From a virus, in the IMG/VR virus record IMGVR_UViG_3300048015_000345, positions 1 to 26,042 of that record: a DNA stretch of 26,042 nt, one strand, 5' to 3'. Below are positions 1 through 22,488 of the stretch, in pieces (position 1 is the first letter of the stretch; every line of letters begins with the position of its first letter). Below the pieces are notes generated by a model. That model saw nothing but the letters and a program-made list of their open reading frames with translations. It was not told the origin of the DNA and made no database searches. Made by a program: the position numbers and the translations under genes.

Positions 1-666
1 GTGCTCGCCCGCATTCATTCTTTCGTTCTCGTCGGCATCGACGCCATCGCGTGTGAAGTCGAAGCAGATGTTTCACAGCGCGGCCTCGGCAAAGTTACGC
101 TCGTCGGGCTGCCGCAGGCGGCGGTGAAGGAATCGGTTGAACGGGTTCGCCGGGCGATCATCAATTCGGGGTTTTCGTTTCCGGGGCATGCGGTGCTGAT
201 CAATCTCGCGCCGGCGGATGTGAAAAAAGAGGGGCCGAGTCTGGATTTGCCGATCGCGCTGGGGCTGCTTCGGGCGACGAATTTTATCAATACCGATCGG
301 CATAAGGATTTTCTGATCGCGGGGGAACTGGCGCTGGATGGGCGGTTGCGGAAAATCAAAGGGGCGTTGTCGCTGGCGTTGCTTGCAAGATCGCTGGGCA
401 AAACCGGCGTGATTCTGCCGGAGGAAAACAAGCGCGAAGCGGCGGTGGTGGAGGGGATCGAAGTGTATGCGGTTTCGTCCCTCAGCCAGGCGGTGGCGTT
501 CTTGAATGAGATGCTGCCGATCGCTCCGTATGAATTGGACGGCGAGCCATACGCGGTGTCGGCCATTTCATCGCCGCTGGATTTCGCCGATGTGCGCGGG
601 CAGGAAGCGGTCAAGCGCGCAATCACCATCGCGGCGGCGGGATCACACAATATTCTCATGTTGTGA
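1..666 (+). pseudogene. comM: ComM/YifB N-terminal fragment, disrupted by the prophage
   Basis: This is the host gene at the left edge. The product, read from a GTG start, is the N-terminal Lon-protease-like/ChlI domain of the ComM (YifB, Mg-chelatase-like) AAA+ family, with typical stretches such as ARIHSFVLVGIDA near the start, GLPQAAVKESVERVR (about 36-50) and LAPADVKKEGPSLDLPIAL (about 69-87). The last residues, VRGQEAVKRAITIAAAGSHN then ILML, are the segment that in intact family members leads directly into the Walker A loop GPPGxGKT. Here a stop codon follows at once, so the AAA+ domain is missing; family members are normally about 500 residues and this one is 221. ComM is a hexameric branch-migration helicase used in natural transformation. 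The fragment is probably non-functional. The remainder of the gene should lie beyond the other end of the element, outside the window. Confidence 0.9.
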
Positions 667-1153: not shown

Positions 1154-2665
1154 TCAACGAATCGAACCCCTTTTGCCTCCACACCCGCACCCCTTGCGGG
1201 CCTTCTCAGGCACTTTGACCGGTGCCTTTGTGTCAACATTCAAATGAGCAAACACGGCCCCCCAAACGGCCTCGGGGTTGGTCCATGCACTTTCGGGCAA
1301 TTCAATCATCGTGCCTTTGTTGGCCCCCTTAATCAATTCTTTGTAGCTCCACCAATGATAATGGTTCGGTGGTGAGAACATGATTGTTGGCGTGTCCATC
1401 ATTGCGGCCAAATGCGAAACACCCGTATCACCGCCCAAATAAATTCGGCACTTGCCGAGCAAATCCACAGTGCCTGCGGTCGACCCGTCCGGGTGATCCC
1501 ATGCTCTTGCATCTGCTTCCACGTCAACCGATGTTTCGGGCCGTCCAACCAACCCAACTGTTAAACCGGCAGCACGCAAGCTCTGCACGACCTCAGTCCA
1601 GTGTGTCCAATTTTTTTCTTTCCCGTGTTCCCGATATCGAGGGCATACGGCAACGTCGATGTTGGGCAACACCGATTTCACTGAGGGCATGAATTTCGTT
1701 TCAAGGTGACCCCATGCCCAGGGGTTTGGGTAGTCGCCTTTTAGAATGGCATGATGAGGAAATCTATCGGCAAGAATTGCACGGGTTCTAATGTCATCAC
1801 CGCTACCATCTTCGCACCGGTGACTATCCGGTATTCCCTCAGGCCAATCATAAAAGAACTCAGTTGCATGGGGGTACAAACATTCTTCACCACGGCGGCA
1901 ACACACAACAATGTTTTGGGCATTTAGTTCATGCACCCAACGAACGTGCCGACAAATCATCCAACCGAATTCACCATAGTACGGCATCACAACGGCGTTG
2001 GTTAAATTCCGAACGGGGTGATAAATCGCAGGTTCCTCAGGGTCAACCGGACGTGAATCGGAACGGTAAGTCATTGACCCGCCGCCCGGCAACACCGCAA
2101 TTGGAAAACCGGCCCAATGAATCATCGTGCCGAGGCGAAGCTCGCAATAGGCCCCGCACATAGGCAACTTGCTAACCTCAACCAATGCCCGACGTGAGAG
2201 CATTAACCCCGACATTGGCGAAACGGCAACCGCATGAGGAACCCAATCATTGGGCAGGTTGTTCAACTCATGCCAATACACCCAATCATCACGACCCCTC
2301 AACACCGTATCGGCGGCGGCAGCATCGGCATTCCACACCGACCGATAGAACGAACGAACCCCAACCGAGGCATAGGTGTCATATTCAAGAACGATATATC
2401 GTTGCGCTTCAACACGGGCCGGTGAGTTGAACCATTCCAGAATGACCAAATCCAAATTGGCCCAATTGGAACCACTTGCAACCCGCCGGACCTCAACCGC
2501 ATTAGGCAAGGGGTTAGCCCGATATGAGGCACACGCAGGGCCTCCGTCGTCGCACCATAGGGGAATGATTGGCACGTCGGGATTGTGCCGTTGAATTGAT
2601 TCCAAATTCTGGCAGGTGACCTCATCATTTTTATGGTGCGTAAACAGAATGACACAATCCAACAT
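1154..2665 (-). CDS. Two-domain glycosyltransferase (GT-A-like plus GT9-like)
   Basis: The 503-residue product appears to join two sugar-transfer domains. The N-terminal half (about 1-215) looks like a GT-A nucleotide-sugar fold: it opens with CVILFTHHKNDEVTCQNLESI and has an acidic metal-site-like motif VLEYDTY at 92-98. The C-terminal half (about 220-470) resembles GT-B heptosyltransferase/ADP-heptose-type (GT9) enzymes, with the nucleotide-binding signature GGDTGVSHLAAMMDTPT at 411-427. The protein ends in a short basic Cys/Gly tail (KGCGCGGKR). The ATG overlaps the stop of the GT25 gene (TAATG), so the two are translationally coupled in the tail operon. The family assignment of the N-terminal half is tentative. 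The substrate could be the Ser-rich tail protein or host surface glycans; the sequence does not say which. Confidence 0.75.
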   Translation of the reverse strand: MLDCVILFTHHKNDEVTCQNLESIQRHNPDVPIIPLWCDDGGPACASYRANPLPNAVEVRRVASGSNWANLDLVILEWFNSPARVEAQRYIVLEYDTYASVGVRSFYRSVWNADAAAADTVLRGRDDWVYWHELNNLPNDWVPHAVAVSPMSGLMLSRRALVEVSKLPMCGAYCELRLGTMIHWAGFPIAVLPGGGSMTYRSDSRPVDPEEPAIYHPVRNLTNAVVMPYYGEFGWMICRHVRWVHELNAQNIVVCCRRGEECLYPHATEFFYDWPEGIPDSHRCEDGSGDDIRTRAILADRFPHHAILKGDYPNPWAWGHLETKFMPSVKSVLPNIDVAVCPRYREHGKEKNWTHWTEVVQSLRAAGLTVGLVGRPETSVDVEADARAWDHPDGSTAGTVDLLGKCRIYLGGDTGVSHLAAMMDTPTIMFSPPNHYHWWSYKELIKGANKGTMIELPESAWTNPEAVWGAVFAHLNVDTKAPVKVPEKARKGCGCGGKRGSIR

Positions 2666-6339: not shown

Positions 6340-8163
6340 TTAAAAGTTTATAATCGTGTTCTGGTCCTGCTGGTCATCCTGTCCAAAGTTATAGAGTTGT
6401 TGCAGGTAATATTGAATTTGCTGTTGAATGGCTAAATTTTGTTTTGCCAGTGCAACCTGTTGTGCGGCGGGGTCTGCGTGTTTCGGTTCCTGAGGTAACC
6501 GGAAATCAAACCGCCGGACCTCGGCCCCCGCATGTTTATTTTCATCTTTGTTGGCCTTGCCTAATTCTTTGCCCTGCTTGTCTATTGCCTCACTGGCCTG
6601 TTGAGCCGTCAAAAGACCCTCGGTATATAGAGCGTTGATTTTGTCCGTTTCATCTTTGAATTTCTCCAAAGGTGACATTGACGATTCAATCAATCGCTTG
6701 GCATCCTCACTATCTTTTTTGAATTGTTCGGCGGCATCACTCTGCTTTTGCAAGGCATCGGCCTGCTTTAATTGGGCATCGTTGGCCCCGTCCCTTTTGA
6801 GGTCGTCTAATTTCTTTTTTGCTTCGGTCATTCCGACCTGTGCGGCCTCACGTTGTAGAGAGGTCATTTCCTCAACTACTTTTTTCTGTTGTTCGATGGT
6901 TTTTAGGGCGGCGTCCTCGGCCTGCTGGCGTTGGTTGAGTTGGGCAAACATATCCCTTTGCCCGGCATCGTCGGTGTGAAGTTTGGCCCATTGTTCGGCA
7001 ACCTTTTCGTCGGCACCCTGTTGCAATGCGTCAATCTTTGCCGCCGTCTCATCCAACTGTTTAGACCATTCTTTCAGGCCCTCGGTGTTCTTTTTGTAGG
7101 TTTCTTCGGCCTTGGTCTTTGCAAGGAGGTCCAATGCTTTTTGGACCTCACCGGCACCGCCGCCTAGTTTGTAAATCTCATCTCTGACTTTCCCCACGGA
7201 GTCGGGTTTCAAGTCGTCCAACTTTTTTTGCAGATCGTCAAGGTATTCGATTACGGGGGAACGTTCGGCCGCACGTTGTTCACCGACGATAGCAATAGAT
7301 GCGGCTTTGGCGGCGTCGGTGATTTTCTGTTGTTGATCCTTTGCCGCATTGGTGAGGCTTAACATCGTGCCTACCAATTGGGTTATGTTGGTGTTGAGGG
7401 TCTTCCATTCAGCGGAACCGGCTGAAGCGTGCAAAAGTTCCTGCCTCATCTGATTCAACACCGGCTGCAACTTGTCACGTTCGGCCTTAACCGAATCGTC
7501 GATGCCCTTCATTTGCTCATCAAATTGATGTTTAAGGTCATCCTGCTTTTGAGCGAATGAGAAATCGACCTCGTATTTCTTGCGAGCCTCAGGGGGCAGC
7601 ATAGATTCGACAACCTTAGCGTTGGCCTCGGCGGCAATTTTCCCCCATTCACGAACGGCGTTGGTCGCATCATGCACGAGCTTGACACGGGTCTCCATGA
7701 TTGCGTTGCCCAATTCTGCGGTCTTATTGATATCGTCGATTTGGGATTTCTCATGCGTGAACATTTCACGAATGTTTTGCCCGGCCTCAACGAATGAACC
7801 GAGGATCGGAATTGATTTACCGATGCCAACGGCAAGGCCGGTGCCGTCGATTTGTCCCTTACGGAATTGGTCGGTTAATTCTGCGGCCTTGCCCGTGGCA
7901 TTTTTGAGTCCCTCACCGAGGAGCGTAATACCGGCAACGGCATAACCGCCCCTGAGAGTCTTTCCCAACTCATCTAATGTTGAACCACGGCCTGCACCGG
8001 ATTTGAGGGAATCGAGAACACCCCTGAGACCACCGACCTCGGTTTTAGTTTGCTGTACCTTTTTACGGAACTTTTCGAGGTCACTTTCGGCCTGATTCGT
8101 GCCTTTGGTGAAGGCATCGCTTTGGGCCTCTAGGGTCGTGACTATTTTGCCAAGTGATGCCAT
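6340..8163 (-). CDS. Tape measure protein
   Basis: The 607-residue product is strongly helical and charged (Lys/Glu/Gln-rich, long stretches with coiled-coil character at about 200-540) with a more hydrophobic Gly/Ala/Leu segment near 70-100. That composition, and its place after the tail-chaperone frameshift gene, are the standard signature of a siphovirus tape measure protein, which sets tail length and passes into the host at DNA ejection. By the usual rule of about 1.5 angstroms per residue it would specify a tail of roughly 90 nm, which is short. The ATG overlaps the stop of the small upstream gene (TAATG), with GGGGG about 6 nt upstream. No lytic domain is visible within it. Confidence 0.85.
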   Translation of the reverse strand: MASLGKIVTTLEAQSDAFTKGTNQAESDLEKFRKKVQQTKTEVGGLRGVLDSLKSGAGRGSTLDELGKTLRGGYAVAGITLLGEGLKNATGKAAELTDQFRKGQIDGTGLAVGIGKSIPILGSFVEAGQNIREMFTHEKSQIDDINKTAELGNAIMETRVKLVHDATNAVREWGKIAAEANAKVVESMLPPEARKKYEVDFSFAQKQDDLKHQFDEQMKGIDDSVKAERDKLQPVLNQMRQELLHASAGSAEWKTLNTNITQLVGTMLSLTNAAKDQQQKITDAAKAASIAIVGEQRAAERSPVIEYLDDLQKKLDDLKPDSVGKVRDEIYKLGGGAGEVQKALDLLAKTKAEETYKKNTEGLKEWSKQLDETAAKIDALQQGADEKVAEQWAKLHTDDAGQRDMFAQLNQRQQAEDAALKTIEQQKKVVEEMTSLQREAAQVGMTEAKKKLDDLKRDGANDAQLKQADALQKQSDAAEQFKKDSEDAKRLIESSMSPLEKFKDETDKINALYTEGLLTAQQASEAIDKQGKELGKANKDENKHAGAEVRRFDFRLPQEPKHADPAAQQVALAKQNLAIQQQIQYYLQQLYNFGQDDQQDQNTIINF

Positions 8164-11783: not shown

Positions 11784-13016
11784 TTAGGGAAGAACCAACG
11801 TTGCAATTGCACGAGGATCATATCCGGCGCAACAGAATGCAAAGCTATTGAATCCCTGTTGTGCAGGGCGTTCGGAATAGTTCACGTATCTGGCAACCGT
11901 CTGGTCACCGGCATAGCGAACCTTGAAACCGAGACCCGACATTACAAACCCAACAACCTGCCCGCTAGAACCACCAAGGGCATTAAGGTAGTCAGTAAAG
12001 ACAACCGGGGTGCCATTGAAGAATCGAACATCGAGGTTCTGAGGGTCATTGAAAGTCAACAACGGCTGGCCGGTTGTTGAGACTAAGTTTTCCATAGCCG
12101 ACAGAACCGATTTGTTGACAACAATGACCTTGCGGCTGTTGTAATATTTCGGCAATGCACGGTTGAGGGCAACAAAGTTTGCGTAGGTTACACCGCTATC
12201 GGTCGCAGCACTAATGTGAGTAGTGATGGTTGAATCGGCGGCAATCTGTGCCATTACAGCAGCCTCAAATGCCAATTCACGACCATAGATCAAAGCAGGC
12301 AGCAACTCGCTCAACATATCAAAGTCAACGGCCTGCAATTCCAGCTCGCTAATCCAGGTGGTGTCACTCTGGAAGGTCGTTGGTTTGAGGTCGATGCCAG
12401 TAATGCCCGGCGGATTTTCAGTTTCAACCGTGGCGTTTTCCGAAACGGTCGAACCTGCTGTAGGCAAGGCAATTGGGTAAGTGATTTCACGGGTCGTTGC
12501 CGTTACCAGCGGTGACATACCAACGGCGGCAAGGGCCTGCACGAGGGTGTTAGGTGCCGTTGGGGTGATGAGGTCAAGAACATCCTTAGGGTATGCGATA
12601 CCGTTGGAGGTCGTTGAACTAATCGTTGCACCGGTTACGGCAAATTTCTTGCGAGGATCGCCAGCGGTTTTGCCCCAATAGTCCAATGCACTATTGAAGG
12701 TCTTTTTGCCCTCGGCGGTTTTGAAGAAATCGAGTGACTTAACCGAATTCTTGACTTCAATTTCGGTTTCCTCTTTACCGGGAACCTCAGTTGGCAGAAC
12801 GATTTTCTTTTCGTCTTTAGACTTAAAGGCATCTGACGCAAAGCGGGCATTGCGTTCGTCGAGGTCTTTAATGACCTGCATACGACTAAATGCGTTATCG
12901 CTTTCGGCCTTTTCCTCATTCGTGAGGTCACGTTTTTCTTCGATAGCTTTTGAAAGCAGGGCATCCGACTTGGTTTTGAGGGAATTAAATTCCTCTCTCA
13001 ATACTGAAATATCCAT
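11784..13016 (-). CDS. Major capsid protein, HK97 fold
   Basis: The 410-residue product has the HK97-family layout: an N-terminal helical, charged delta (scaffold) segment (about 1-110), normally removed by the prohead protease, then the capsid domain. Family landmarks include GIAYPKDVLDLI, NTLVQALAAVGMSPLVTATTREITYP, TTWISELELQAVDFDMLSELLPALIYGRELAFEAAVMAQI and a C-terminal GFKVRYAGDQTVARY segment. The ATG at 13016 (MDISVLREEFNSLKTK) is preferred over an in-frame start at 13064, since coiled-coil delta domains usually begin this way. It is followed by a strong terminator, consistent with high expression. The leader between protease and capsid contains a perfect inverted repeat. Confidence 0.92.
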   Translation of the reverse strand: MDISVLREEFNSLKTKSDALLSKAIEEKRDLTNEEKAESDNAFSRMQVIKDLDERNARFASDAFKSKDEKKIVLPTEVPGKEETEIEVKNSVKSLDFFKTAEGKKTFNSALDYWGKTAGDPRKKFAVTGATISSTTSNGIAYPKDVLDLITPTAPNTLVQALAAVGMSPLVTATTREITYPIALPTAGSTVSENATVETENPPGITGIDLKPTTFQSDTTWISELELQAVDFDMLSELLPALIYGRELAFEAAVMAQIAADSTITTHISAATDSGVTYANFVALNRALPKYYNSRKVIVVNKSVLSAMENLVSTTGQPLLTFNDPQNLDVRFFNGTPVVFTDYLNALGGSSGQVVGFVMSGLGFKVRYAGDQTVARYVNYSERPAQQGFNSFAFCCAGYDPRAIATLVLP

Positions 13017-13041
13017 TGTAGTTTCCGTTGATTGTTTGTCA

Positions 13042-13058
13042 GTTGTGAATCTCACAAC
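13042..13058. promoter_or_regulatory. Perfect 7-bp inverted repeat in the capsid leader
   Basis: GTTGTGA-atc-TCACAAC lies 26 bp upstream of the capsid ATG, in the only sizeable gap (73 bp) of the portal-protease-capsid unit. The size suits a repressor operator or a small RNA hairpin; no protein partner is known. Confidence 0.4.
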
Positions 13059-13089
13059 GTCCACACGTTCAACCGAAAACTCTGCTCGG

Positions 13090-13758
13090 TTACCTCAGTG
13101 CAAAAGTATCTAGTGCCAATCTCTTTAATTTCAATTGTGCATCTAACAATTTTGTGTAGGTTGGCACTGGTGGAAGGGCCGGTGTAGGCGGTTCCTTATG
13201 CTCAATATCCGTTGCCGTCATAGCTGGAATTGGTGTAATAGTGACCTCATCGACGGTGAACCTATTCACACTCACAACATCGAGGCCGTTGTCGGTGTCG
13301 TCACCATCGGTGATATCGTAATCCTCAAATCCATTCGCCATTGAAAACGACATACCGGCAACATCACCCCTAGCAACCCAGGCACTGACATCGTTCCCAA
13401 TTTGGGTGCCGAGGTTCAAATCCAATTCGATTGGTATTCCAGTTTCATCGGGTTGACCGATGCGGAGGGATTTATTGGCCGTGGTTCCCAATGGCGTATC
13501 AAACTGATGGTGCCACAGGGCCATTACGGGTGAGGTCCAATTGATCGTTGCATTGTTGGGGATTTGAACGACATAACCGCCTCGGTCGTCTGAGGTCGTG
13601 CCGGGAACGGCGTTGTTGGCAAACACAATCGGATAACCGGTCAATGTCACAATGCCGTTGGTGCCATCACCGGCGGCAAAGGATTTGGCCTTCACTCTCA
13701 GATTGCAACGATGAGCCGAAACGATTTGACGGCCCGAAAACTTTTCACGGTTTTTCAT
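13090..13758 (-). CDS. Prohead (HK97-type) maturation protease
   Basis: The 222-residue product shows the herpesvirus-assemblin-like fold signatures of phage prohead proteases: VTLTGYPIVFANNA near the N-terminus, a catalytic-type histidine region MALWHHQFDTPLG (about 79-91), the serine region GMSFSM (135-140) and the third-residue region DEVTITPIPA (170-179). It removes the capsid delta domain during head maturation. The ATG overlaps the portal stop by 4 nt (ATGA) with a GGGGGGAG ribosome-binding site. The Pro-rich C-terminal segment (PPTPALPPVP, about 191-200) links to a short charged tail. Confidence 0.88.
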   Translation of the reverse strand: MKNREKFSGRQIVSAHRCNLRVKAKSFAAGDGTNGIVTLTGYPIVFANNAVPGTTSDDRGGYVVQIPNNATINWTSPVMALWHHQFDTPLGTTANKSLRIGQPDETGIPIELDLNLGTQIGNDVSAWVARGDVAGMSFSMANGFEDYDITDGDDTDNGLDVVSVNRFTVDEVTITPIPAMTATDIEHKEPPTPALPPVPTYTKLLDAQLKLKRLALDTFALR

Positions 13759-15371
13759 ACTCCCCCCTCATTTGCTTTTGCCTGATTTGTCAGAATTTCG
13801 CTTGCGATTGCCCCGAGGTCCGGTTCATCGTGACCGGCAATGATGCCCCGCACACCGGCGGCATATCGTTCACCCACCGCCTGGGCGGCACCATCGGTGA
13901 CCGGGTGACCCATTGCCGCCAACGTGGCAAAGATCGGTGCGACGGAATCGGTTGCATATCGCTTTTGATCTTCAGCGAACACATTGCCCCAACGGGTAAG
14001 GGCCTCACGGTCGCCACCGTGGCGTTTAGAGGCCGTTTCTAGGGCCTTGGACGTTTTCGACGACACACGGGCCGAGGCATCGGCGAACAATGCGGCAAAG
14101 GCCGTGAGGTCGGGCAGCTTGCGTGATTGCTTTTGCGGTTCATCCTCTTTGCGATCAACCGCCGGTGTTGATGGATCGGTGACAGGCGGCGGGTTGTTCG
14201 TACCGCCCAATGTCGCCAGCTTGTCGGCGTTGGGGTCGGTGTCGGGTGCATAGCCCAACACGTTGCGAGCCTCGTTCGGTGTGATGATTCCCGCCGCCTT
14301 TTGGGCAATCGTGACATTGCTTTCGGTTGCCGTGTCACCACGGATAAGGGCATTGGGGTCGATATGGATTCTCAGGCCCTTTGCCAACTCTGCCGGTGCC
14401 ATCAATTTTGCACTCAATTCCGATTCATCGGCCTCGATGAGGGGCCGGAACAAATCACGCACGACGGCCTGCTGCTGCTGTTCAACGGCTGCGTTGTATT
14501 TGCCCTCGGATAAATCAAACATCATCACAGGCGGCACACCGGTAATTTGTGCAATCTGTTTCGTACTCAGGGATGAAAGTTGAATCGTTTGTGATTGTTC
14601 GTTACTCAGGCCGTTGTTGGTGAAAGTTGCACCATCGCTCAGAATCAACACGTCATTATCAGCATTGGACCCGCTGAATTTAGTCCTAATTGTTCTTTCG
14701 ATTTCCGTCTGCTTTTCTGGAGACAATGCTTTATCAATGTTGATGGTTCCCCGAATAACACCACCCTTAACGAGATAGCGGGTGATGAACCTATCAACGT
14801 GCCTTGCCCGTTCAAATGTCTCGGTTAAGAGTGTGATAGGATTCAATCCTTTAAGGCCGTCATAACTCAGGCCCATTAAGTGGATCATGTCGGCATATGC
14901 GACGACGTGGCAGTTGCGACCTCCGACGTAATACCACGTTGATATATTTCCATCGTCGTCAATCCACCGGAACGGCCAAACCAATTCGGGAAAGTGTTGG
15001 TGCAACTCGACAGGTCGGAATTGAGAATCACGAACAATTTCGGCATAACCGTTGCCCGTGTGCGACCGATGAAAAAACAATGAACGCCAGAAATCAAACG
15101 ACGTTTGATAAGAATTCGGTTTGATGGTCAATAGACTGGTGACGGGATGATTGATATCGACGTTGTTATTTTGAATCGACCTCGGGAACGAGGCCATATT
15201 TGAGGCAATGTAATTCATTGCCCGCCAATAAGACGGGATTGTCAAAACCGAATATGAATTAACAAGTGCGTTCGGCAAGACGTTGGGAATTGAATCGATG
15301 ATATTCATACCACCGATGCCCCCGATTGCCCCTCCGATGCCGTCAAAAGTCTGAAGATTGGTCGTTGCCAT
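13755..15371 (-). CDS. Portal protein, HK97 family
   Basis: The 538-residue product follows the HK97 portal pattern: VLTIPSYWRAMNYIASNMASFP near the N-terminus, HPVTSLLTIKPN, FDFWRSLFFHRSHTGNGYAEIVRD, ADMIHLMGLSYDGLKGLNPITLL, and TKQIAQITGVPPVMM. It forms the dodecameric DNA channel at the capsid vertex. The C-terminal part (about 420-538) is a longer Ala/Ser/charged extension than in HK97 and looks helical; its role is unknown. The ATG at 15371 is preferred over an in-frame upstream start that would overlap the terminase end, because TACATA sits 5 nt before it. No Shine-Dalgarno sequence is visible. Confidence 0.9.
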   Translation of the reverse strand: MATTNLQTFDGIGGAIGGIGGMNIIDSIPNVLPNALVNSYSVLTIPSYWRAMNYIASNMASFPRSIQNNNVDINHPVTSLLTIKPNSYQTSFDFWRSLFFHRSHTGNGYAEIVRDSQFRPVELHQHFPELVWPFRWIDDDGNISTWYYVGGRNCHVVAYADMIHLMGLSYDGLKGLNPITLLTETFERARHVDRFITRYLVKGGVIRGTINIDKALSPEKQTEIERTIRTKFSGSNADNDVLILSDGATFTNNGLSNEQSQTIQLSSLSTKQIAQITGVPPVMMFDLSEGKYNAAVEQQQQAVVRDLFRPLIEADESELSAKLMAPAELAKGLRIHIDPNALIRGDTATESNVTIAQKAAGIITPNEARNVLGYAPDTDPNADKLATLGGTNNPPPVTDPSTPAVDRKEDEPQKQSRKLPDLTAFAALFADASARVSSKTSKALETASKRHGGDREALTRWGNVFAEDQKRYATDSVAPIFATLAAMGHPVTDGAAQAVGERYAAGVRGIIAGHDEPDLGAIASEILTNQAKANEGGV

Positions 15372-15394: not shown

Positions 15395-17380
15395 TCAAAC
15401 TACCGTGATAGTGCCTCCCCAATCTTTCGACGGTTCAATTGCGGATCGTTTGGCCTCAGTAAGTGCCGTCACCAATGCGGCAATGCCGTCAATCTTTGCC
15501 CCCCTACGGCCCTTGTAACCATCACCGCCCTTAGTCCCTCTATACCCCGGTTTCACAGGCCAATATCCGCCATGTTTACCGGGTTCTACTTCCACCACTT
15601 CTGCGTGCGCCCTCAACACGGCGTTGGCCTCTATGGTGATACTCCCCTCAGTTAATCTTCTATCCGCCTCAACACACCCAGGCGATACTGAGAACCCCTG
15701 CGCCACCGGCACACACGTCAAACCCTTTTGTTCCAACTGATAAATGACGGCATCGGCCTTATATCGGTCATATCCAACCGTGGTGATTGGGTGTCGTTGG
15801 TGAAGGTCAATGACCCATTGGGCAATACGAGCCTGCACCGCCGGTGTGATCGTCGTTTCATCCAACAACGTGATTGCACCCAATGCCGCCCATTCGTAAT
15901 ACTGGTGACCCTCAGATTTTTGGTACTTGTCCGCCGTTGCCCGTGGCAACCAAAAATGGGATTGAATGTAAACCCGGTCACTTGACCAATAGACGGCAAC
16001 GGCGCAGCACAGGTCATCACCCTGAGATAGATCGAGGGCAACGGTGAGGGTCAACCCTTTGACGGACTCAGGATCAACCGGCCCGGTGTTGGCGTCCCAT
16101 TTCTTTAAGTCAAGCCATTTCGTTGTTGCTTGAACGTGTTGCCCCAAATATAGCTGCCGCCATTCTCTCTCCTGCTCAGGTAAACCCTTCCGGCGTTCCC
16201 ATTCCTTTTGCAAGGCATCTTCCGTGATTGTTACTCCAATCATCGGGTTGGCCTTACGCCATGTTGCAGGATCGTCTATAGGATCGTCCGGGGCAGCTTG
16301 CCAAAGGATCGGGTACAAACCGGGGTCAACTCGCTTGCCGCTGAGAACATCTTCAGCCTCGGCTTGCATGATGCCGTAAAGACCGTCACGGGTTGTGCCG
16401 GTGTTGGTCGCAATCCATGTTAGGGGTTCGGGCCGTTTGATAGTTCTACTTTGTAGGTCGTTGAATGCCTCGGCATTTTTGTTTTGGTGACATTCTTCAA
16501 ATATGATTACACCGGCAGCGGCACCGGCCTTCGGACCTTTGCCCGAAACAATGTCCCAAATGGTGCCGGTCAATTTGTTTTTGATCGAATATTGGTTGAT
16601 CTTAGTTCGATTGAACAATGCCGGTGAGGCTCGAATCATTTCCTTTGCCGGTTCAAAAGTCACCCGGTTTGATTGGGCATAGTCGGAGGCAAGGCAAAAA
16701 ATTTGGTTGCCCGGTTCTGAGCCTAAATAAAATTCATATAAAGCCGCAATCACAAGGATCGGGCTTTTGCCGCAACCGATTGAACCGTTCCAGAATACAC
16801 GTTTTATGCGACGTAATTTTGTCTCACGATGTTTGTAGCCCCACACATCCCTGAGGATTCGTTTCTGTATCTCCGTTAATTCAAAAGGCTGCCCCTTCTT
16901 TCGCCCCCGTGTGAACTTTATATATTTGGCGACAAATTTGATCGGACGTTCGGCGGCATCGGCATCGTAGTAATAGGTTTCATCCTCGGTGAGGTCCAAC
17001 ATTCCCGAGACATAAGGCCGCTGGGGTTCGGGTTCGGTTTCCTGAGCCGTTAAGATGTTGTGACAACTCACACACACCGGCATGAGGTTCGATTGATCGG
17101 TCTTTTCGTATTCGTCGCATTGCGCAAGGGGTTTTATATGATGCACATGCACGGCCCAGGTGTTTTGGCACCGACGGCACGTTGGCGAAATCGAAAGTGC
17201 CTCGGCACGGGCTAATTGCCATGCCTTAGAATTGTAAAATGCCTTTGCCTCAGGGTTCCTTAGATGTTGATCGTAAAAGCTATTCTTGCGAGCGGTGACC
17301 TGGGGTTGATGTTTTGAACACCAACCGGATTTAGTGAGTAATTCGGGGCAACCTGAGTGACGGCAGTGAAAACTTGGCAC
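15395..17380 (-). CDS. HNH endonuclease-large terminase fusion protein
   Basis: The 661-residue product begins with a full phage-type HNH protein: a CxxxxC...CxxH zinc knuckle (C6, C11, C21, H24) followed by the ββα-metal HNH unit with C68/C71, HVHHIKP at 78-84, N98 and CVSCHN at 103-108. After an acidic linker (about 112-140) the large terminase continues in the same frame: Walker A GSIGCGKS (199-206), Walker B VIIFEE (291-296), a nuclease Asp in ALDLSQGDD (448-456), GYDRYKADAV (536-545) and the C-terminal AKIDGIAALVTAL motif (628-640). In HK97 these are two adjacent genes whose products cooperate in cos cleavage. The GTG start lies 4 nt from a TACATA box. The gene is alone between a 196-bp gap and the portal. 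Confidence 0.92.
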   Translation of the reverse strand: MPSFHCRHSGCPELLTKSGWCSKHQPQVTARKNSFYDQHLRNPEAKAFYNSKAWQLARAEALSISPTCRRCQNTWAVHVHHIKPLAQCDEYEKTDQSNLMPVCVSCHNILTAQETEPEPQRPYVSGMLDLTEDETYYYDADAAERPIKFVAKYIKFTRGRKKGQPFELTEIQKRILRDVWGYKHRETKLRRIKRVFWNGSIGCGKSPILVIAALYEFYLGSEPGNQIFCLASDYAQSNRVTFEPAKEMIRASPALFNRTKINQYSIKNKLTGTIWDIVSGKGPKAGAAAGVIIFEECHQNKNAEAFNDLQSRTIKRPEPLTWIATNTGTTRDGLYGIMQAEAEDVLSGKRVDPGLYPILWQAAPDDPIDDPATWRKANPMIGVTITEDALQKEWERRKGLPEQEREWRQLYLGQHVQATTKWLDLKKWDANTGPVDPESVKGLTLTVALDLSQGDDLCCAVAVYWSSDRVYIQSHFWLPRATADKYQKSEGHQYYEWAALGAITLLDETTITPAVQARIAQWVIDLHQRHPITTVGYDRYKADAVIYQLEQKGLTCVPVAQGFSVSPGCVEADRRLTEGSITIEANAVLRAHAEVVEVEPGKHGGYWPVKPGYRGTKGGDGYKGRRGAKIDGIAALVTALTEAKRSAIEPSKDWGGTITVV

Positions 17381-17384
17381 CCCT

Positions 17385-17402
17385 TATGTAGGTGACTACA
17401 TA
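17385..17402. promoter_or_regulatory. Two-sided TACATA box between terminase genes
   Basis: The perfect inverted repeat TATGTAG-gtga-CTACATA gives one TACATA on each strand. On the minus strand it lies 4 nt before the large-terminase GTG (17380); on the plus strand it lies 5 nt before the ATG at 17408. This is the only symmetric copy and suggests divergent initiation. Confidence 0.55.
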
Positions 17403-17576: not shown

Positions 17577-17927
17577 TTAAACTTCCAATTCTTCCGGTTC
17601 GTCGGCGGTGAGGTCAAACCCCCTTGCATTTGGTGTGAGGCCCAAATCGGCTAATGTTCCCCTGAGCATCTTTGTCGTTTCGCCCCAATTCTTATACCAA
17701 GGTGACGGCCCCATTACGCCGTTACTATATTCCATCGTCTGCCCGTCACTCAAAACCCGTTGATATGCCTCACGGTTGATTTGCCACGTCTGGCAATGTT
17801 GAACCATGATTGCACGGTCGGCATTGTTGAGCCGTCCGAGGTCGGTTAGTTCCTGAGTGATTCGTTGCCATTCTTTCAGGGACTCACCCTTTAGGATCGT
17901 TGGAGGTTTAATGTTGTTAGTTGGCAT
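17577..17927 (-). CDS. terS: Terminase small subunit, P27 family
   Basis: The 116-residue product has the P27-type small-terminase pattern: PTILKGESLKEWQRITQELTDLGRLNNADRAIMVQHCQTWQ (about 9-49), then a DGQTMEYSNGVMGPSPWYKNWGETTKMLRGTLADLGLTPNARGF segment. Such proteins recognise packaging sites and load the large subunit. Its start overlaps the end of the preceding small gene by 11 nt. The 196-bp gap to the large terminase is unusual, as these two genes normally abut, and the gap holds the repeats and a two-sided TACATA box. Confidence 0.85.
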   Translation of the reverse strand: MPTNNIKPPTILKGESLKEWQRITQELTDLGRLNNADRAIMVQHCQTWQINREAYQRVLSDGQTMEYSNGVMGPSPWYKNWGETTKMLRGTLADLGLTPNARGFDLTADEPEELEV

Positions 17928-18947: not shown

Positions 18948-20708
18948 TCAATTCAGAATGTCACTATTCACACCCGCAACGACAGTTCCTGCCGTTCCAC
19001 TCACACTATTTGAACCCGCAATGACCGTTTGTTGATCGTAGAATTTGCCTTCTTGCAATTTGACGTGTGACACCAAATCGGCGGCAAGTAATGCGTGTCC
19101 CTCAGTGTTTGGATGGACCTGCAACCCTGCGGCGGTCGTGCTGTATTGCGTTGTCGTCGATGTTAGGAAACCATAGTTTCGAGACGACAAATCGTAATAG
19201 CTGGTTTTATCATCGCCAGAAAAGGCCGTTTTGTACGCATTGAAACCGTTTAGAATTGCCGTGTTTACTGTGGTCACATTGTCAGAACACAAAATCGTGT
19301 TGTCACTTGGCGATGCCCAAACGATGAGCGTATTTGCACCAACTTTATTGCGAATAGTCGTGAGCATCGACGTTACATCATTCGCTAATGTCGTTGCACT
19401 TGCACCACCGTCATTAGTGCCATGACAAATCAAAACATAGTCGGGTGTGCCGAAATTCCTGGCATTCACCGAATCATACATCGTGAAAGTGTTGATAAAT
19501 GATGGTGCAGGATTTGGTGACGATGCCGATTTCTGTACGCCTTGCCCTGAGTATGCAACGATTCCAGTTTCGGCGTTTAATCCGTGTCCAACCAATGCCG
19601 CAAAACTCAACTGACAAGCATTACCGCCAAGTGACGTGCAATTGTAACCTCGGGTGATAGAGTCACCGAAAATCAATGCCTTCTTAGGCCGAATGGTTGC
19701 GTTGCCAGTTGGTGCGACGAATCCTGCACCTGCACCGTAATCGGTTTGAATGCCGCTGATCCTCACACCGTCAAAACTAGTTCCAATATTCCAAGTGTTA
19801 TTCTCGGCATTTGGTTCAAAACGAATTTCGGCATTGTGACCGAACACCGGCGCACCACCGGTGATGTAATACATTCCTGAGGTCGTCAATTGCGTCTTTA
19901 CCCAAGGGCCATTATCCAAGCTCGACAGAATCCACGGATAAGACGAATCACCAATCGGTGAAACATCGACATTGATTCCAATTGTCGTGCCGGTTGTCCC
20001 TACTTTGATGCCGTTGCCCGTGTGCATCCATTCAAGACTTGTACCTGGGTTGATGTAGTGACCCGGTGTGAGTCCGAGGCCGATGCTATCTGGCGGCAAC
20101 ACGTTCGTTGCGGCACCCTGATAAACGAAAAGGTTCTTAATTTGGATTCCGGCGGTATCGGTGGAATTGCTTCCGCCGAGCGGACCCGATTCAATCGTGA
20201 CGAAATTACCGAACGTCAAACCGCTGGGATATGACATCGATGCCTGCGGTGAACCGTTGATGGTGTATGAAATCGTTGATGATGAGACGAAGAATTCAAA
20301 ATGGTATATCGTTGGTGCGCTCGAATTGCCCGAGGTCAAGTTCAAACTCTGCGTGTGCAAATTTCCAACCGTATCCATTCTGTAAAGAACGATTGACCCG
20401 TTTTCAGTGTATCGCAATTCAACACCGCCAGTATAAGGATTGCCAGCGGTCGCAGAACCAATCACGATTCCCATATATCCGCCAAGTTGTGACGGCACTT
20501 GTATATCGAAACTAACGACCGTACCTGCCGACGATGTTGTTGCCGGAACGGCAATATATGCCTGTGTTCCTGAGTTGTTTCGCAACCAACCCGAGGGCGT
20601 AATCGTGTATGCACCCTGAGTAACGGTGTAATTAGAATTATATGCGGTAAGGTTAAGATCGGCACCGGTTGCGTTGTTGAATAAGTCAGAAAAGATCAGT
20701 GATGACAT
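18948..20708 (-). CDS. Tail spike with C-terminal SGNH/GDSL hydrolase
   Basis: The 586-residue product has a beta-rich N-terminal half (about 1-200) resembling a LamG/concanavalin-type carbohydrate-binding domain, then a linker (about 200-340) and an SGNH/GDSL hydrolase domain (about 343-555). Hydrolase landmarks are IFGDSITRGYN (block I, nucleophile Ser350), GTND at 430-433 (block III) and VHPNTEGHALLA (block V, His532). The acid that usually stands three residues before the His is not there (Leu529), so activity could use another residue or be weak. Such enzymes remove acetyl or other ester groups from surface polysaccharides and serve phages as depolymerase-like spikes. It sits outside the main tail module, in the methyltransferase unit. 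Confidence 0.75.
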   Translation of the reverse strand: MSSLIFSDLFNNATGADLNLTAYNSNYTVTQGAYTITPSGWLRNNSGTQAYIAVPATTSSAGTVVSFDIQVPSQLGGYMGIVIGSATAGNPYTGGVELRYTENGSIVLYRMDTVGNLHTQSLNLTSGNSSAPTIYHFEFFVSSSTISYTINGSPQASMSYPSGLTFGNFVTIESGPLGGSNSTDTAGIQIKNLFVYQGAATNVLPPDSIGLGLTPGHYINPGTSLEWMHTGNGIKVGTTGTTIGINVDVSPIGDSSYPWILSSLDNGPWVKTQLTTSGMYYITGGAPVFGHNAEIRFEPNAENNTWNIGTSFDGVRISGIQTDYGAGAGFVAPTGNATIRPKKALIFGDSITRGYNCTSLGGNACQLSFAALVGHGLNAETGIVAYSGQGVQKSASSPNPAPSFINTFTMYDSVNARNFGTPDYVLICHGTNDGGASATTLANDVTSMLTTIRNKVGANTLIVWASPSDNTILCSDNVTTVNTAILNGFNAYKTAFSGDDKTSYYDLSSRNYGFLTSTTTQYSTTAAGLQVHPNTEGHALLAADLVSHVKLQEGKFYDQQTVIAGSNSVSGTAGTVVAGVNSDILN

Positions 20709-21746: not shown

Positions 21747-21752
21747 TATGTA
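21747..21752 (-). promoter_or_regulatory. TACATA box before the methyltransferase unit
   Basis: TACATA, then CGTCC, then the GTG at 21741. It is part of CACCTACATA, also seen at 17385 and 22041. Confidence 0.55.
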
Positions 21753-21762
21753 GGTGACCTTT

Positions 21763-22040: not shown

Positions 22041-22046
22041 TATGTA
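22041..22046 (-). promoter_or_regulatory. TACATA box before the coiled-coil gene
   Basis: TACATA, then TTGGC, then the ATG at 22035. It lies in the narrow space between the minus-strand start and the plus-strand HNH gene start. Confidence 0.5.
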
Positions 22047-22047
22047 G

Positions 22048-22488
22048 GTGCCTCACTCTAAATATTGGGTGAGAACATGGCGGAACTATAGTTGCCCTCA
22101 GTGTGGGGCCGTTCGGGTGATGGTGAATAAGACCCAGCACGAAGGCCGGTTGTGCCGGAAGTGTTCAATGGTCAACCGGCATGGTTCGGGTTCCAAATAT
22201 GTTTCCCGCCTGAGGTTTCAAACATGGCGGGTCAATGCTGGCAAACGGGGTTTAGTTTGGCAAATCACCGAGGCCGACATAGATGCCCTTTGGGAGGCTC
22301 AGGGAGGCCGTTGCCGGTTCACGGGGTTGCAGTTGGGTGACGATGCAAGTTTGGATCGGATCGACAACGACCTCGGCTATTTCGTTGGCAATGTCCAGTT
22401 GGTAGGCCGGGCGTTGAACATGGCAAAGGGGTCAATGACCGATGAACAATTCATTGAACTATGCCGGGCCGTAGTTGCGAACCAATAA
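22048..22488 (+). CDS. HNH-type (homing-like) endonuclease, lone plus-strand gene
   Basis: The 146-residue product has an N-terminal zinc ribbon (C16xxC19 ... C36xxC39), a middle region ending in EAQGGRCRFTGL (about 84-94), and the HNH-like ββα segment SLDRIDNDLGYFVGNVQLV (about 101-119) with NMAKGSMTDEQFIELC after it. This is a common form of phage HNH protein, often mobile (free-standing homing nucleases). The GTG at 22048 is the first start after an in-frame stop. The minus-strand terminator just downstream would stop opposing transcription before it runs antisense through this gene. No TACATA box precedes it, so its expression route is unknown. It may have arrived independently. Confidence 0.8.
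   Translation: MPHSKYWVRTWRNYSCPQCGAVRVMVNKTQHEGRLCRKCSMVNRHGSGSKYVSRLRFQTWRVNAGKRGLVWQITEADIDALWEAQGGRCRFTGLQLGDDASLDRIDNDLGYFVGNVQLVGRALNMAKGSMTDEQFIELCRAVVANQ

Follow-up and report, generated by a model that had tools for sequence, protein, structure and literature searches.

Here, we report that a likely virus of planctomycete bacteria encodes its DNA-packaging motor together with an accessory nuclease in a single protein rather than two. The window, the whole stretch of DNA analysed here (26,042 nucleotides, positions 1 to 26,042 of IMG/VR record IMGVR_UViG_3300048015_000345), contains a genuine in-frame join of a packaging-type HNH endonuclease to an HK97-type large terminase subunit (TerL) in a single polypeptide. 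We favour, with a probability of about 0.62, the reading that this is an evolutionarily maintained fusion that arose from a terS–HNH–terL gene order, and that its tethered HNH domain nicks at cos together with the TerL of the same chain. The fusion, its parts and its neighbours lie as follows.

15395–17380, minus strand: HNH–TerL fusion open reading frame (ORF), 661 amino acids plus stop, GTG start at 17380
17033–17380, minus strand: HNH part (phrog_144 type), residues 1–116, by matches to phrog_144 and PDB 5h0m
17309–17365, minus strand: N-terminal zinc knuckle C6/C11/C21/H24, residues 6–24, by residue alignment
17045–17179, minus strand: HNH core, residues 68–112, with H81, N98, H107 and four zinc cysteines, by Pfam and alignment
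16973–17032, minus strand: linker, residues 117–136, frame 0, by codon log-odds, linker alignment and a dip in pLDDT at 111–120
17000–17002, minus strand: ATG of residue 127, aligning with the TerL N-termini of unfused relatives
16373–16867, minus strand: TerL ATPase, Pfam residues 172–336, with Walker A GSIGCGKS and Walker B VIIFEE
15446–16288, minus strand: TerL RNase H-like nuclease, Pfam residues 365–645, with D450, D538 and D631
17577–17927, minus strand: terminase small subunit (TerS; Terminase_4, P27 type), directly upstream of the fusion, by Pfam and PHROGs
13755–15371, minus strand: portal protein, immediately downstream (the ORF extends to 15422 with TTG; ATG at 15371)
13090–13758, minus strand: prohead protease S78, by Pfam
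11784–13064, minus strand: HK97-fold major capsid protein, by Pfam and PHROGs

The fusion ORF runs without an internal stop, and its GTG start lies two codons past an in-frame TAA; this start is supported because unfused relatives, too, open with ‘MPS’ ahead of the first knuckle cysteine. The HNH part is followed by a linker of around 20 residues and then by a complete HK97-type TerL. Pfam assigns HNH to residues 68–112 (5.3e-7), TerL_ATPase to 172–336 (1e-11) and TerL_nuclease to 365–645 (1.8e-20), all exceeding their curated cut-offs, and PHROGs places phrog_144 (HNH) at 5–116 (6.7e-28) and phrog_9 (TerL) at 114–650 (4.5e-107). Sequence matches in the PDB comprise the terminase large subunit 6z6d (137–566) and the HNH endonuclease 5h0m (4–114, 9.7e-14). 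An earlier sequence-only reading of this DNA had claimed an HNH protein and a large terminase in one frame, and the two libraries bear this out: both domains score above cut-off in one ORF, and the window’s HNH has no stand-alone gene. An AlphaFold2 model of the fusion, built from a 99-row alignment, has a mean pLDDT of 91.5 and a pTM of 0.75, with low-confidence spots at about 28–40 and 111–120 (pLDDT down to 67 in the latter); its best fold match is PDB 6z6d, the HK97 large terminase (5.1e-34), and its HNH part contains an HNH-like beta-beta-alpha core (E78–81, E99–102 and H104–114).

Both enzymes appear complete in the window. Every HNH and zinc-knuckle residue that the sequence-only reading had listed is present, namely the motif H81/N98/H107, the preceding H80, the zinc cysteines C68/C71/C103/C106 and the knuckle C6/C11/C21/H24. 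The full TerL it described is likewise found, with a P-loop ATPase carrying Walker A, Walker B and the coupling motif, and an RNase H-like nuclease with its three acidic residues; the Walker A lysine, the catalytic Glu and the three nuclease Asp are all intact. Peculiar to the window are an E for D at residue 295 and the unusual Walker A sequence, and across the aligned clade the TerL motifs are retained except for single changes.

The left 663 bases of the window (1–663, plus strand) code for an N-terminal piece of comM/yifB with 77% identity to that of two Phycisphaerales metagenome-assembled genomes (MAGs) and 75% to that of a third. The match stops at about 661, in the Walker A coding region, and nothing past CTCATG matches the comM of related MAGs; the break looks like a prophage integration junction. 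By these comparisons, the source is likely a phage or prophage of Phycisphaerae, within what is likely the host order. The genomes G413 and G516, key relatives obtained in a search of the class, whose HNH and terL loci are the closest among cellular genomes, belong to the same order as the comM MAGs, because the genomes carrying comM loci L086, L087 and L088 (G001, G002 and G003) were retrieved by an order search centred on G413.

Unfused relatives show the arrangement from which such a join could have come. The Phycisphaerae prophage cassettes L353, L354 and L295 and the IMG/VR loci L368, L369, L448 and L478 share the window’s terS–HNH–terL order, itself unusual, carry the same knuckle-bearing HNH and encode a TerL 35–44% identical to the window’s, but have HNH and TerL as separate ORFs. 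HNH and TerL are separate in G413 (two loci) and G516, where the order is terS–HNH–terL–portal. Wherever a clade contig covers both sides, a small sample, the HNH keeps its place between terS and terL, and this synteny argues against mobility. The HNH and terL ends overlap in L353 and L369, abut in L368 and are separated by a spacer in L295; the HNH gene of L353 terminates within the start of terL, in another frame, and GGAGG precedes that terL start. Three junctions hold inserts. In L354, the insert is a second, different HNH ORF (6489–6998, plus strand; Pfam HNH) between the packaging HNH and terL, and in L448 and L478, the window’s sister group, it is a glycosyltransferase-like ORF, the Pfam run having covered L478.

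HK97, which the sequence-only reading had taken as its model, does keep the three components as separate genes, but its layout is not that of this lineage: its HNH gene lies at the far genome end (39054–39413), with terS from 50 and terL from 542, in contrast to terS–HNH–terL. HK97 gp2 shares the TerL family phrog_9 with the window, and the head genes are HK97-type in both, whereas the TerS families differ (phrog_5601 against phrog_83). Both HK97 gp74 and the window’s HNH match phrog_144, although their best families differ (phrog_144 against phrog_2323), the gp74 match begins beyond the knuckle, and the two sequences are only distantly similar (37% over 41 residues, E 0.06). Passages in the literature describe cooperation of the HK97 HNH protein with terminase in cos cleavage (PMC10448857) and give gp74 a part in site-specific cleavage (PMC12817073).

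Further in-frame HNH–TerL fusions occur on seven other contigs (L363–L367, L443 and L446). A hidden Markov model (HMM) scan of 440 loci, a sample enriched for relatives and containing near-copies, identified TerL in 419 ORFs and HNH in 195; 80 comM loci (L086–L165) were left out before counting. Both domains were found in 11 ORFs, corresponding to 8 distinct contigs including the window (L444, L445 and L447 duplicate L364, L365 and L367, and L001 is the window), all in one clade; L449 begins at a contig end and stands outside the fused/unfused tally. The architecture, described as unusual in the sequence-only reading, is therefore uncommon (8 distinct contigs among 419 TerL ORFs) but not unique. 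The clade alignment, used as a probe, retrieved L363–L370, five of which (L363–L367) hold both domains in one ORF, while the 652 bases examined upstream in L370 contain no HNH; a probe built from the fusions added L443 and L446. In the second library, each of the seven matches phrog_144 and phrog_9 within one chain. They resemble the window in the order of the fused parts, in an alignable linker and in their neighbours: terS lies directly upstream in all six that cover that side (L364, L365, L366 (partial), L367, L443 and L446; L363 begins at a contig edge, its upstream side absent), and the portal gene lies downstream in all seven. They differ from the window in their HNH residues, as set out below, and in standing apart from it in the TerL tree. 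Near its N-terminus, the L367 fusion is missing a usual start codon.

Other searches yielded relatives in unfused form. Single-protein scans of viral contigs with the fusion, portal and capsid, and of genome contigs with the fusion as query, gave no relative. A degenerate Walker A pattern matched nine stretches, one of them near a TerL, which was unfused. Broad TerL and HNH alignments used as probes returned distant relatives only (84 TerL ORFs besides that of the window, and 81, none fused); in the set of 81, terL is followed within 50 bases by an HNH ORF in 17 places and preceded by one at a distance in 10. Whole-genome matches were obtained in 30 of 392 sampled Planctomycetota genomes, 25 of 397 of the class and 4 of 26 of the order, and in 79 of 398 from the phylum of an Oscillospiraceae MAG, four draws that overlap; in the matches listed, HNH and TerL always lie at separate places, the ORF-level check covering the fetched loci. 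Two sets of candidates were rejected. A one-piece tblastn match to the TerL of Elener reaches into the HNH part, but Pfam finds no HNH there, and the long open frames at planctomycete TerLs (L168, L169, L171 and others) lack any HNH match and resemble read-through of GC-rich sequence. In a separate TerL lineage (L060, L215, L236, L238, L243 and others), an HNH ORF follows directly after terL in 17 places among 80 loci, with gaps of a few bases or overlaps, making this lineage a candidate for C-terminal fusions.

Among phage records, 1548 of 50,697 matched the fusion, and in the 60 of these matches that were listed, the three with both parts are two-piece joins: one, H3, is annotated with an endonuclease, a TerS and a TerL as distinct features, and the remaining two carry no annotation. 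L366 as query matched 2385 phage records, none shown as a fusion among the 15 matches listed; 495 of 72,556 plasmids matched, with none a fusion by its features among the 15 listed. The architecture is nevertheless probably not without database precedent. Two UniProt entries from uncultured Caudovirales phages, A0A6J5QUV0 and A0A6J5RK67 (‘HNHc domain containing protein’; 586 and 602 amino acids, 16–17% identical), match the fusion model structurally in BFVD and, compared by name, length and alignment scores, are probably earlier unremarked fusions. The titles and passages of the literature searched contained no published description of an HNH–terminase fusion. The profile phrog_4581 (395 positions), annotated as a terminase small subunit, aligns with HNH domains at about 26–114, and HNH–TerS fusions may thus exist too.

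To place the fusions relative to one another, we used a tree of the TerL part with 23 rows under a mixture model, which replaced a 263-row tree that was too large and long-branched. The window clusters with the unfused L478 and L448 (99/98) on a long branch (1.23), and the seven other fusions form two groups near the unfused L353, L354, L295 and L368. An approximately unbiased (AU) test, with the tested clade named once the relatives were known, rejects a single clade of the eight fusions (p 7.9e-10, or 1.3e-6 once L449 joins them); a clade of the seven others plus L449 is not rejected (p 0.18). Therefore, fusion probably arose at least twice, although one fusion with later splits fits the tree equally. 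A bolder version, which we put forward tentatively and give less than even odds, is that the lineage is a hot spot in which HNH and terL were brought together on at least two independent occasions; the HNH of the L363 group would have been rebuilt as a knuckle-less, often Asn-less motor module, giving a ring that carries its own cos-recognition or nicking domains, with the window at an earlier stage, its HNH intact.

By analogy with HK97, the tethered HNH most likely takes the job of gp74, nicking at cos with TerL. We propose that in an ancestor with the order terS–HNH–terL, in which the HNH and terL ends overlapped or abutted, an in-frame join produced one protein. The P27-type TerS would gather the motor at cos, where the tethered HNH would nick and help the chain’s own RNase H-like nuclease to make the cos ends; the ATPase ring would then translocate DNA through the portal with the HNH domains carried along. 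The literature basis of this scheme is formed by passages in PMC10448857, PMC12817073 and PMC8928760; we infer for the window cos-type packaging, nicking by the HNH part, its cooperation with TerL and a benefit of their fixed ratio and position.

The most serious challenge to a nicking HNH is that the fused domain may be reduced or vestigial, a DNA-binding or structural extension of TerL that does not cut and leaves the TerL nuclease to make the ends. The knuckle residues C6, C11, C21 and H24, kept in the window and in all seven unfused clade HNHs, are absent in all seven other fusions, and an HMM of the knuckle, built from the window and the unfused HNHs, finds none there. The Asn equivalent to N98 is retained in the window, L443 and L367 but is F in L363 and G in L364, L365, L366 and L446 (a loss in five of seven), compared with six of seven unfused HNHs that keep it (L448 has L); L363 additionally lacks one zinc cysteine. 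In keeping with a reduced HNH, Pfam scores are weak, four of the seven passing E 0.001 and three reaching the curated cut-off. Given the knuckle and Asn losses, selection in these relatives may be maintaining something other than catalysis by the HNH part, and the idea of two full nucleases at a 1:1 ratio, advanced in the sequence-only reading, fits the window’s sequence but perhaps not theirs. Against a vestigial HNH, every HNH residue is intact in the window, and H80, H81, C68, C106 and H107 are common to all eight fusions. The HNH cores of the seven other fusions share a mean identity of 0.54 (against 0.53 among the seven unfused), close to that of their TerL (56%), which indicates that the HNH part is not drifting freely. 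Fused pairs have a slightly higher median ratio of HNH to TerL distances than unfused ones (1.0 versus 0.84), and by this comparison the HNH of fused proteins is changing slightly faster, short of free drift. On balance, we consider a non-cutting HNH unlikely, at perhaps one chance in five.

The remaining explanations concern whether the join is what it seems, and how it came about. The fusion might be just one product, with free TerL arising from an internal start at ATG127 or by cleavage in the linker; ATG127 does align with the N-termini of unfused TerLs and the linker is a low-confidence stretch of the model, yet ATG127 lacks a Shine–Dalgarno-like sequence ahead of it, unlike several window genes and the terL start of L353 with its GGAGG, and no linker methionine occurs in any of the five other fusions aligned, making two chains rather improbable. 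An assembly or sequencing artefact is largely refuted. A single indel could join overlapping genes arranged as in L353, and the sequence-only reading had pointed to an error masking a stop or frameshift as what would undo its claim; seven other contigs nevertheless carry in-frame fusions with alignable linkers (for example, L363 CHNVLTAQETTPEP versus window CHNILTAQETEPEP), and the frame 0 coding signal runs through the linker, the codon-usage log-odds over residues 109–136 being +11.5 against −9.4 and −11.0 in the other frames, for a short stretch and a codon table drawn from eight window genes. A selfish homing HNH endonuclease trapped as an in-frame 5′ extension of terL seems very improbable: homing-type nuclease genes do cluster beside terminase genes (passages in PMC10448857), and L354 holds its second HNH ORF between HNH and terL, but the clade HNH is syntenic and of one family whether fused or not, as expected for a part of the packaging module.

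The preferred reading, a maintained fusion whose HNH nicks at cos, bears on why an HNH protein is needed in many cos phages when the terminase itself contains a nuclease. The covalent link suggests that cutting and packing of the viral genome involve the two enzymes acting next to each other, and its natural occurrence suggests that the HNH acts on the motor and not elsewhere in infection. The fusion offers a single-chain reagent for structural and cos-cleavage work, and the series from unfused, through fused with an intact HNH (the window), to fused with a reduced HNH (the L363 group) may indicate which HNH residues packaging needs.

Other features of the window accompany the packaging module. 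The motif GTCACCTACATA occurs at 17385–17396, 21747–21758 and 22041–22052 (all minus strand), twice exactly and once with a single mismatch, in positions that lie upstream of the fusion and of a methyltransferase ORF; allowing up to two mismatches gives five matches against 1.27 expected (0 of 100 shuffles), and the motif is perhaps a phage promoter or operator. Upstream of terS, a large protein (18948–20708, minus strand) contains a GDSL lipase/acylhydrolase domain and is perhaps a tail or surface enzyme. An Endonuclease VII-like gene (22048–22488, plus strand; phrog_3322 and phrog_1035) lies on the strand opposite to the adjoining phage genes. A Glyco_transf_9-type protein is encoded at 1154–2665 (minus strand), with homologues in the structural modules of related phages, near the capsid gene in L356 and L357.
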